The translations under genes were made by a program, and so were the position numbers. A model generated the notes under the pieces. The model worked only from the letters and a program-made list of their open reading frames with translations. It had not been told where the DNA came from and did no database searches. Positions 1-2,735 of a stretch of 25,068 nucleotides of DNA are shown piece after piece. The DNA is from a virus. The stretch's first letter is position 1. The number at the start of each line of letters is the position of its first letter. The stretch lies in the IMG/VR virus record IMGVR_UViG_3300025138_000325, positions 1-25,068 of that record, one strand, 5' to 3'.

Positions 1-593
1 CTACTAGCTAAATTTAATCTATCAGAACCACAAAAAATACCTATAACTCCACCACTATTTCCATTCATTCCACTTGCACAAGTGAACCATACATAAAAAT
101 GTGAAGTTGTACTTAAAGGTGTCATTGCTACAGTAAGTACTTGTGCACCATTACTTACTGCTTTGTTATTTGGAAAATGTTTTCCACCTAAATCATTGCT
201 ACTGCTAATAACAGCAGTTGTTGATGCATTTTTTATTTGTAAAACTTTACCACTTGGAGCCTCTCCCCATTCTGGGTCATTAGCACCTTGTTTTAAAACA
301 TAACCAGCTGTACCTTTTGGTAGTCTAGTTAATGCACTTGCACCTTTAAAGACCAAATCTCCTCTAGCTGAAAGTGTTGATGTTAAATCAGTTCCATTAC
401 TGCCATTAGTACCAGCAGAACTCATTATATTCCAATAAGCTGTTGCGTTGCCTACTGCTTGATTTGAATGGGCTTGAATACAAACATAACTATTTCCATT
501 TGCTGTAGCTATATCATCAACAGCATAAGACGTGCTGCTATTGTAAGCACCTGTCCAGTTTAATTTTAAAGAACCTAAATTTATTGTTGCCAT
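1..593 (-). CDS. Tail fibre / receptor-binding protein, C-terminus cut by window edge
   Basis: The start is ATG at 593-591, behind a strong ribosome site (AAAAAGGAG, about 6 bases upstream on the minus strand). The frame stays open to position 1, giving 197 visible residues. The protein opens with MATINLGSLKLNW, followed by a W-x-G-x-Y...ST-x-Y...DD segment and SYVCIQAHSN. I recognise this as a small beta module, resembling carbohydrate-binding folds, that recurs in marine phage fibre proteins. Next comes an 'LVFKGASALTRLPKGTAGYVLKQGANDPEWGE' type linker region (about residues 80-110), typical of fibres, and then a beta-rich, Ser/Thr/Gly-rich tail. It lies directly downstream of the full-length fibre gene, so it probably works at the tail tip in host recognition. 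Specificity cannot be told from sequence. The assignment rests on composition, motif resemblance and position. Confidence 0.7.
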   Translation of the reverse strand, partial: MATINLGSLKLNWTGAYNSSTSYAVDDIATANGNSYVCIQAHSNQAVGNATAYWNIMSSAGTNGSNGTDLTSTLSARGDLVFKGASALTRLPKGTAGYVLKQGANDPEWGEAPSGKVLQIKNASTTAVISSSNDLGGKHFPNNKAVSNGAQVLTVAMTPLSTTSHFYVWFTCASGMNGNSGGVIGIFCGSDRLNLAS

Positions 594-635: not shown

Positions 636-2735
636 TTATATAGTGGCTATTAAATTGCCATTTGAATTAACGCTAAAGACAAAACCAGAAGCACTAAATA
701 AAACATCATTAAAGTTGGCATATTGACTTTCAGTGATGTTATCTACACCTTGATTAGTAGTAATATATCTAACTGCATTAGATCCAGGTGTTGGTGTGTT
801 TGCTGTTCCACCCATATTTGTATGAGAAGAACAATAGTAGTAAAGTGTTGGTGCACCACTAGCTACAACAATTGTTACTTGTGTTGAACTATTGTGCGTT
901 ACGCCTGTTGTATATTCTGATCCACTACCATGTGTTCCATTAGAAGTAGTTGAAAATTTAAATGGGTGTCCAGAAGGATAATTAAATATGTAAGTATTAC
1001 CTTCGTATAAATCTAAAGTATCTTGTTGAACACCATCTATAAAATATTTATTTGAACCACCAACTGAAACTACAGTTACTGTTCTAACTAATGTAGATGG
1101 ATTATAATATTGTTCAAAACCATAAACTTCTGCTGAACTTGCATTTGAATATACTAATGCGTTTGCACTAGAGTTAACAACAAGAGCTTGTCCTGCTGTA
1201 CCAATAGAAGCAGGTGTATCTGTTAAATCATTAATTGATATGTTAGCTAATTGAAATGTACCATAAGCTACTATCATTAAAATATCATTAACAGCAGCAC
1301 CACTTGCTAATACAATTGATGAACCAGAAGTTGCTGTGTAATCTGAATTTGCTAATTTTACACCATTTAAATATACATCTATAAATCCAGCGTCATATGC
1401 TAAAGTTTTTGAATTTGAATCTGCACCAGTAAATGTTGTTTGATTTGCTGTAGCTGTGTATTCAAATCTGTTACTTGTTCCGTTAACAGTTGAACCTGCT
1501 GCTGCCCATCCACCAGATTTGTAAACTTTTAATTCATCAGCTGTAGTATCAAAATATAAATCACCTGCATTAAGACTTGATGTTGGTGCTGAACTTGCAA
1601 TTCTATATACATCTCCAAAATTTTGTACTGATGCTAAACTGTTGCTTACACTTGTAATAGCTGCATGTGCATTAGCTAAATTATTTAAATTAGAAACACC
1701 TGCAAGTGTTGCCATGTTTGTTACATTTGTAGATGTACCAAGTGTAGCCATAGCAGTAACATTAGATGATGTACCTAATAAATTTAAATCTGTAACTACA
1801 GAACTTGTTCCAAGTAATCCCATTGCAGTAATATTTGCAGACGTACCTAATAAACCTATTTCAGTAGCTTTACCTGCTACAGATGAAATATTATTTGTAG
1901 GAGTTATTTGACCTGCAACACTATTAACATGACCTTGATTTGTAGAAGTTAAAGTTAATTGCCTCCATTGAGTATTAGTCAAGTCATAGACTTTCATAAT
2001 ATCATTTGTTGTATCAAAATAAATTGCTCCATCTACTAATGCGTTTCCGTCATTATCAACACTTGGGTTACTTGATTTAGCTCCTAAGAATCTATCATCA
2101 AATGTATCAAGTGCTGCTTCAGCTGCGTTTTTTGCATTTTCTGCTGACGTTGCAGAACCTGCTGCTGCTGTTGCTGAGTTACCTGCGTTTGTTGCTGATG
2201 TTGCTGCGTTTGCAGCTGATGTTAATAATCCAGAAGCATCAACAGTAAACTCTAATCCTGTACCACCAGAATTTGCTGACAATACTTTACCTGCAACCAT
2301 ATCTGGAAAAGTAAGATTAAATGAAGAAGAAGAAGTTGTAGCAACTCTTGGAGATAATTTTTGATCTCTTTCAAGCTGTTGTGCCATAGCAATAATTTTA
2401 TCTAATTCTGTATTTAATGAAGCTATTTGGAAAGCTCCAGATGTTGGAAAGTCTGTAGATCTCGCTATTGCTAAATCTCTAGATATTGTAATTATATTAT
2501 TTACTGTAGCTCCAGGCGAACCTAATGTAATAGATCCTCCACCTGTTTGTCCTGCACCAGATACAGAATACTGTGATGCGTTTGTAGGTGATGCCGAAAA
2601 AGTTAATAGTGATGTACCATTAAATACTTTTAAATCTGCATTATCAAAAAACTCGAATCCAACAGTAAAGCTAGTTTGTCCAGCTGTTGCTGTATATTGA
2701 ACTCGTGGTTCTACGTCTGAAATTATTATACTCAT
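636..2735 (-). CDS. Tail fibre protein, T7-type N-terminus with a cupredoxin-like C-terminal domain
   Basis: 699 aa. Residues 1-125 match the N-terminal tail-attachment region of T7-like fibres (RVQYTATAGQTSFTVGF, later LNTELDKIIAMAQQLERD). Residues 170-212 form an Ala/Ser/Asn-rich, probably coiled-coil stalk. Residues 234-262 and 388-418 are two copies of a YFDTT-x2-(D/E)-x-(M/L)KVY module. Between them, residues 294-345 hold about five imperfect 'LLGTSxNVTxM' repeats. Residues 424-494 form a second beta-sandwich-like module. Residues about 555-645 resemble plastocyanin-like cupredoxins, with H590 (GHPFKF) and a C635-x2-H638-x2-M641 cluster after YYY, which is the type-1 copper ligand order. 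The role is host adsorption at the tail tip. The start overlaps the stop of the upstream virion gene. Copper binding is inferred from ligand spacing alone. Confidence 0.85.
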   Translation of the reverse strand: MSIIISDVEPRVQYTATAGQTSFTVGFEFFDNADLKVFNGTSLLTFSASPTNASQYSVSGAGQTGGGSITLGSPGATVNNIITISRDLAIARSTDFPTSGAFQIASLNTELDKIIAMAQQLERDQKLSPRVATTSSSSFNLTFPDMVAGKVLSANSGGTGLEFTVDASGLLTSAANAATSATNAGNSATAAAGSATSAENAKNAAEAALDTFDDRFLGAKSSNPSVDNDGNALVDGAIYFDTTNDIMKVYDLTNTQWRQLTLTSTNQGHVNSVAGQITPTNNISSVAGKATEIGLLGTSANITAMGLLGTSSVVTDLNLLGTSSNVTAMATLGTSTNVTNMATLAGVSNLNNLANAHAAITSVSNSLASVQNFGDVYRIASSAPTSSLNAGDLYFDTTADELKVYKSGGWAAAGSTVNGTSNRFEYTATANQTTFTGADSNSKTLAYDAGFIDVYLNGVKLANSDYTATSGSSIVLASGAAVNDILMIVAYGTFQLANISINDLTDTPASIGTAGQALVVNSSANALVYSNASSAEVYGFEQYYNPSTLVRTVTVVSVGGSNKYFIDGVQQDTLDLYEGNTYIFNYPSGHPFKFSTTSNGTHGSGSEYTTGVTHNSSTQVTIVVASGAPTLYYYCSSHTNMGGTANTPTPGSNAVRYITTNQGVDNITESQYANFNDVLFSASGFVFSVNSNGNLIATI
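1701..1856 (-). repeat. Tandem 'LGTS-NVT' repeats inside the tail fibre
   Basis: Residues about 294-345 of the fibre contain a string of imperfect 10-12 residue units (LLGTSANITAM, LLGTSSVVTDL, LLGTSSNVTAM, TLGTSTNVTNM, then a decayed TLAGVSNL). At DNA level this appears as repeated acctaataa / gtagatgt blocks. Such repeats usually build a shaft and can change copy number. This is seen directly in the sequence. Confidence 0.75.

Follow-up and report, generated by a model that had tools for sequence, protein, structure and literature searches.

The window examined here, a stretch of 25,068 nucleotides of viral DNA (positions 1 to 25,068 of IMG/VR record IMGVR_UViG_3300025138_000325), contains a tail fibre gene at positions 636-2735 on the minus strand, and the 699-amino acid (aa) product of this open reading frame (ORF) was found to carry a domain of the cupredoxin superfamily in which all four ligands of a type-1 copper site are present. 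The probability that both fold and site are as described is put at about 0.93. The domain occupies residues 548-649 (window 789-1094), as judged from relatives, a structural model, structure matches and profiles. Its ligands, identified from the sequence and from conservation, are H590 (codon at 966-968, in an HP motif), C635 (831-833), which is the only cysteine of the fibre, H638 (822-824) and the axial M641 (813-815). A preliminary description had assigned these four residues to a plastocyanin-type fold at residues 565-645. Location of the codons confirmed all four positions, and residues 565-645 do correspond to window 801-1043, an interval which is included in the domain but, on the evidence of relatives and the model, falls short of its full extent.

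The fold was predicted with AlphaFold2 from an alignment (A1) of 44 domains from the window and from viral contigs, comprising the window and 43 of 45 selected rows (L001, an identical domain, was replaced by the window, and the incomplete L073 was left out). The predicted structure was a beta-sandwich of eight strands with a mean predicted local distance difference test (pLDDT) score of 87.5 and a predicted template modelling (pTM) score of 0.80. Over model residues 11-110 the blocks of ten residues averaged 95-98, except for block 61-70 (83). The model is a Greek-key beta-sandwich of the cupredoxin type. In it C635 (model residue 100) closes the penultimate strand (96-100), H638 and M641 (model residues 103 and 106) lie in the loop ahead of the last strand (107-111), and H590 (model residue 55) is found in a loop ahead of strand 57-60. 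This succession of ligands and strands is that of the type-1 copper sites of plastocyanin, azurin and amicyanin. The secondary structure and the profile alignment to plastocyanin-type proteins suggest a placement in which the four residues may meet in space.

Comparison of the model with the PDB using Foldseek gave 21 matches at E-values (E) of 0.001 or lower, the best being a cupredoxin-containing nitrite reductase of Hyphomicrobium (4.5e-5), with rusticyanins and two-domain laccases among the others. The cupredoxin fold proposed in the preliminary description was thereby borne out, with type-1 copper proteins on top. Three Shewanella aspartic peptidase entries (SO1698) were also returned at E of about 1e-3. 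With VIA-align 2, the N-terminal domain of the Hyphomicrobium nitrite reductase (PDB 2dv6, residues 24-137) was superimposed over 93 residues with a root mean square deviation (rmsd) of 2.6 A and 22% identity (Z 9.5), while rusticyanin 2cal gave Z 8.8. The best 50 VIA-align rows were made up of copper nitrite reductases, laccases, rusticyanin and coagulation factor VIII, the A domains of which have the cupredoxin fold. In a second model, covering residues 483-699, the domain had a confidence of 92-97 and gave Z 9.7 to 2dv6.

The connection to blue-copper families at the sequence level was obtained through diverse relatives. Searches of the PDB sequences gave no more than chance-like matches, whether the query was the window domain or the profile A1 of the close family. 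Plastocyanins were reached only with a diverse alignment (A4) of 55 domains; it consists of the window, 9 domains from named phages and 45 from genome contigs, with 28-90% identity to the window. It takes 54 of 55 candidate rows plus the window, and the candidates had been filtered beforehand by redundancy, length, E-value and unknown letters; the length filter removed a long S-ShM2 copy with intact ligands. PF00127 (Copper-bind) was matched at E of 0.1 or lower by 18 of the 55 members (best 2.4e-5), and at the same threshold the NCBIfam plastocyanin model (TIGR02656) was matched by 15, the amicyanin model by three (best 1.9e-4) and the rusticyanin model by one. All 24 PDB sequences found with the A4 profile at E of 1 or lower were plastocyanin, pseudoazurin, copper nitrite reductase or copper oxidase, each match being weak alone (best E 0.0076). 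Alignment by hhalign of A4 to a yardstick set (A3) of PF00127-type proteins (18 of 33 blue-copper loci, longer ones being left out) gave a probability of 93.3 and E 2.7e-7 over 68 columns, the Cys and both His ligands being in register; only 21 columns were aligned when the close-family A1 was used instead. The A4 profile alignments also showed that plastocyanin has two more residues in its Met loop. The C-x2-H-x2-M spacing given in the preliminary description was correct, but it is amicyanin-like and not plastocyanin-like, and the same spacing occurs in the amicyanin-like L252 and in L163 of the yardstick set. Weak Pfam matches other than cupredoxins were seen among the relatives, namely FecR, DUF7574, CBM_4_9 and PF25489, the last in 11 of 55 (best 0.002).

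Conservation of the ligands was examined in several samples, of which the fairest are a viral scan with a pattern drawn from the N-terminal half of the domain, without ligands, and a search of named phages. The first of these took the best 80 of 317 relatives and partly overlaps an earlier viral scan. All 64 distinct untruncated domains carried HP and C-x2-H-x2-M, as did 12 untruncated duplicates, and the four domains that end before the Cys at a contig end keep the His. Among 31 distinct fibre-family inserts, which are fairly close kin, 35 columns were invariant and not the ligands alone. Because the set found with the ligand-free pattern consists of such close kin with many constant residues, the diverse A4 is the stronger test; there H, C and H were the sole invariant columns, and Met was present in more than 90%. 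A ligand-less half-domain of Syn1 (L278:5543-5779) was left out of A4, so this statement on invariant columns applies to domains having a site. In the earlier viral scan (best 80 loci, the incomplete L070 being omitted from the tally), all 80 domains, 72 of them distinct, had H, C and H, and the Met was in register in 71 of the 72. One viral protein (L066:1829-3055) contains a pair of cupredoxin domains, and in the second of them an additional residue precedes the Met. A scan of a genome collection with two patterns, each including some ligands, gave H, C and H in 85 of 85 domains and Met in 84. The Cys-His-Met pattern alone was matched by 51 of these, the first His being aligned in all 85 regardless; six matched the His pattern alone, five of them with C-x2-H-x2-M, and three matched neither pattern, with the site present. 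A chance motif was ruled out by the retention of the ligands in the ligand-free-pattern set and in the diverse alignment.

Ten named phage records yielded 19 matches in nine records, counted as 17 domains, and all four ligands were present in 13 of them, including four of four in P-SSM2. No copy of the domain was found in HTVC109P in this search. All four ligands were absent from two S-ShM2 domains (L378, residues 213-309 of a 493-aa frame, and L381, residues 502-572) and one Syn1 domain (L375, residues 501-662). A marginal S-B68 match (L376, residues 502-568) was without the Cys, the first His and the Met and has a His possibly at the place of the second ligand. That three copies lost all four residues together suggests that the residues serve one purpose. 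Homologues lacking the ligands had been named in the preliminary description as speaking against a copper site; they do exist, but as extra copies in S-ShM2, Syn1 and S-B68, which also carry intact ones. The ligands were thus kept throughout the close family and in most of the named-phage domains, although not in all.

The site-less copies bear on the view that the domain is a metal-free adhesive or spacer beta-sandwich, in which the ligands are kept for loop packing. This view is favoured by the two copies in S-ShM2, the one in Syn1 and, marginally, that in S-B68, as well as by the many further residues constant in close kin. It is opposed by the 55 diverse domains, in which the conservation of the Cys and both His exceeds that of every hydrophobic core position, and core packing does not usually involve a free Cys next to two His and a Met; we consider the view unlikely. 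A native site for another metal, for example zinc, is very doubtful. Type-1 sites can accept Zn(II) in vitro, but when the fourth ligand of a cupredoxin frame is Met, the site is typically one for copper. It is somewhat more probable than not that the domain holds copper in the virion.

A number of observations weigh against a type-1 copper cupredoxin and have to be set beside the evidence above. The window sequence alone matched no copper family in Pfam or NCBIfam; the curated cut-off of PF00127 was not reached, and the amicyanin model TIGR02657 was not matched. At 9.5, the VIA-align Z score is no more than moderate. Pro comes directly after the first His, as against HN in most of the 18 yardstick proteins, L163 being a yardstick protein that also has HP. 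The alignment A4 was gathered mostly by means of ligand-containing patterns, and the half-domain left out of it was a ligand-less one. Among the 72 distinct viral domains one has a shifted Met, with one extra residue before it, and in one of the 85 genome-collection domains (the sixth of those found by the His pattern alone) the Met is replaced by Gln. Four of the 17 named-phage copies, all four from cyanophages, are without the site, which indicates that phage proteins can use the fold metal-free. Conservation, furthermore, does not discriminate between candidate metals.

The position of the domain within the fibre was determined by comparison of relatives. A scan with the stem (residues 369-530, window 1146-1631, minus strand), which is common to fibres without the insert, took the best 80 of 379 related loci, and 64 of these include the end of the fibre frame. 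The domain was present in 36 of the 64 complete fibres and absent from 28. Among the latter, 20 retain the left flank together with the same C-terminal cap, which ends in ATI or ATV, six have a different cap (like HTVC109P), and two, both counted as domain-less, have frames of other kinds (L336, and L354, whose frame ends within the beginning of the domain). The left flank is SSAEVYGF (residues 533-540, window 1116-1139), a cap strand according to the relatives' alignment and the model, and the right part of the cap (residues 656-699, window 639-770) is conserved with and without the insert in the fibre alignment. An alignment (A5) of 28 fibre ends, 21 with and seven without the insert, was made from the window and 27 of 32 rows, five insert-less rows (L306, L307, L314, L327 and L330) being left out. 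It showed a cap that is continuous across the insertion point, with a short loop in the empty forms and a cupredoxin in the others. The second model placed strands directly before (535-543) and after (654-659) the domain, with lower confidence. The location at the tip given in the preliminary description holds in so far as the domain is near the receptor-side end; it does not terminate the fibre, however, but is inserted in the C-terminal cap.

The presence of the insert has changed repeatedly. Seven presence changes were counted on a tree built from 41 stems, of which 27 carry the insert and 14 do not; at least three of the changes are forced by well-supported branches, and presence was more clustered than in shuffles (mean of about 12 changes). 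In the 37 insert-bearing fibres, stem identity was 90% or more in 41 pairs, and in seven of these pairs the inserts were no more than 65% identical; in the pair L303 and L319 the stem was 96%, the cap 95% and the insert 64% identical. The insert thus undergoes exchange or fast divergence relative to the stem. It is under purifying selection, the median pairwise ratio of nonsynonymous to synonymous substitution rates (dN/dS) being 0.25 for the insert, 0.18 for the stem and 0.21 for the cap (pairs non-independent).

The domain was also found well beyond this fibre. As the preliminary description had stated, similar sequences exist in structural proteins of other marine phages, both pelagiphages and cyanophages. 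The pelagiphages are HTVC028P and EXVC032P Baldr (putative tail fibre) and EXVC031P Hodr, where it is in two pieces; the cyanophages are S-TIM5, S-B68, P-SSM2, S-ShM2 and Syn1, and phage 023Pt_psg01 carries it as well. Two of the four P-SSM2 domains are in the putative proximal tail fibre, the S-ShM2 domains are in the gp9 baseplate connector and its neighbour, and that of S-TIM5 is in a structural gene near the portal gene. A structure search of viral proteins returned further cyanophage fibre and baseplate proteins. Three giant-virus proteins annotated as 'beta-sandwich' (Pithovirus LCPAC302/304 and Marseillevirus LCMAC201; BFVD identifiers A0A481Z7Q7, A0A481Z6J5 and A0A481YVH3), of 124-169 aa, matched the model at 24-28% identity.

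In cellular assemblies, fibre-like genes with the domain were found in Pelagibacteraceae; they probably derive from prophages or from phages captured along with the cell. Proteins of SAR86, SAR92, Woeseiaceae and Euryarchaeota (some titled Marine Group II or Poseidoniales) carry the domain too, and their N-termini, by eye, resemble lipoprotein signals. Two euryarchaeal proteins (L140 and L155) with lipoprotein-like N-termini have collagen-like repeats joined to the cupredoxin. Cellvibrionales proteins hold one to three copies, and in Photobacterium and Flavobacteriaceae the domain is part of open frames of about 3,000-4,100 codons. A Woeseiaceae protein (L097:4444-6309) combines a cadherin-like stretch, an HEYYH stretch, which presumably resembles a zinc protease motif (there was no family match), and a C-terminal cupredoxin. 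Based on these sequences, the domain looks like a cassette shared by ocean phages with ocean bacteria and archaea.

The same distribution affects annotation. The family phrog_677 ('baseplate wedge tail fiber protein connector') was matched by 53 of the 55 A4 members and by all seven full-length cellular proteins scanned; in six of the seven the best stretch was the cupredoxin part, and in L108 it was a longer stretch including the cupredoxin. Bacterial and archaeal proteins were matched through the cupredoxin domain by phrog_677, phrog_30742, phrog_6005 and phrog_708 ('tail' or 'virion'). PHROG annotation can therefore mislabel bacterial or archaeal copper-like proteins as tail parts.

The occurrence data also help to judge what the site may do at the host surface. 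One proposal is that of a lure, in which the copper-loaded domain mimics a carrier and a host copper-uptake or cupredoxin-docking protein serves as receptor. The ligands are indeed kept in a domain near the receptor-side end, and cells of the same waters carry the domain on proteins resembling surface lipoproteins, so that partners could exist; iron versions of such an idea are in print for HxH sites (PMC11705849). On the other hand, no receptor or host copper gene has been linked to the domain, and the domain is found in a cyanophage baseplate connector and in the portal-adjacent structural gene of S-TIM5, not at tips alone. These non-tip locations fit a general module better than a specific lure, which appears improbable. 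Similarly improbable, and slightly more so, is the idea that copper gathered after lysis switches the particle on, with a host copper-handling or cupredoxin-docking surface protein as the receptor. In known cupredoxins the type-1 ligand set serves electron transfer, and the set is complete here, so that Cu(I)/Cu(II) cycling at the host surface might be imagined, for example to set off a conformational switch in the fibre or to oxidise a thiol on that surface. A lone redox site requires a partner, however, and searches of the fibre with Pfam and PHROGs revealed no other redox domain; such a redox role is given very little credence.

The favoured mechanism, a metal-stabilised binding cassette near the fibre tip that is swappable among phages, is given even odds. 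The ligands and their conservation, the predicted fold, the insertion with its patchy presence, the purifying selection and the occurrence in other marine phages and in cells come from sequence and prediction; we infer copper occupancy with one copper per chain, extracellular loading and an adhesive role. In this mechanism each fibre chain would display one cupredoxin domain near its receptor-facing end, and each domain would take up one copper ion once the particle has left the cell. The metal would pin the His loop to the Cys-His-Met loop, giving a rigid surface; this surface, variable around an unvarying metal site, would touch the host, and phages would swap the cassette much as they do other tips.

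The rest of the fibre and its neighbours are in keeping with a T7-like marine podovirus, having an N-terminal tail part and a position after internal virion proteins. Based on PHROG matches, the product is a tail fibre (phrog_21412, E 1.2e-45), and its N-terminal part (residues 5-122, window 2370-2723, minus strand), presumed to be the attachment end, matched phrog_1640 (E 4.3e-18, whole-protein score). Genes upstream matched an internal virion protein, tail proteins, a major head protein, a head-tail adaptor and terminase in Pfam and PHROGs. A second tail fibre gene adjoins the fibre at window 3-593 (minus strand) and is interrupted by the end of the record; its residues 16-46 resemble the Pfam family CBM_5_12 (E 2.3e-5, just under the cut-off). 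Four DNA relatives of the window were found in a phage collection, of which two are pelagiphages and the other two are uncultured phages from the MedDCM fosmids; MedDCM records AP013541 and AP013543 are among the relatives, the latter at 78% over the domain. Within the genome collection, the domain nearest to that of the window, at 89% identity, belongs to a Ca. Pelagibacter contig (L082). Because of the pelagiphage DNA relatives and this contig, SAR11 bacteria are the likely hosts, and the virus is a probable pelagiphage.

Comparison with known systems indicates where the domain stands. With rusticyanin and the 2dv6 nitrite reductase it shares the predicted fold and a His followed by Cys-His-Met around the last loop, but those are electron carriers or enzyme domains, whereas this one is part of a virion, with an identity of about 20% and an HP motif. 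With amicyanin (TIGR02657) it has the short C-x2-H-x2-M loop in common, although the model itself was unmatched by the window; with plastocyanin (TIGR02656, PF00127) the profile link runs via the diverse relatives and the window itself is likewise unmatched. Cyanophage petE (plastocyanin) has been reported for S-RSM4, Syn9 and P-SSM2 (PMC2984593). It is also a cupredoxin in marine phage genomes, but a stand-alone electron carrier of host type and not a fibre domain; a stand-alone phage plastocyanin gene was ruled out for the window, the domain lying inside the fibre reading frame. Octahedral iron HxH sites, with a Trojan horse idea, have been proposed for the tail fibres of T4 (gp37) and alterophage R22Y (PMC11705849), and these are likewise proposed metal sites, R22Y being a marine phage. 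An iron HxH fibre was ruled out for the window, as no HxH is present among the six His of its fibre (269, 357, 590, 602, 614 and 638).

The C-terminal regions of pelagiphage fibres were described as having no similarity among them, with a YadA domain in one, and the section of PMC3909814 on variable fibre ends makes no mention of a cupredoxin. No cupredoxin domain in a phage virion protein was found in the open PMC literature, as covered by titles and the beginnings of abstracts, subscription papers and preprints lying outside this scope. UniProt, InterPro or Gene3D may already label some of these proteins.

Close fibres with the cassette, without it and with differing versions of it constitute a natural experiment. 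If the site holds copper, the virions of common ocean phages would be copper proteins, and a part that is probably used in host recognition would depend on a trace metal. If recognition is copper-dependent, marine viruses would represent a standing pool of protein-bound copper.

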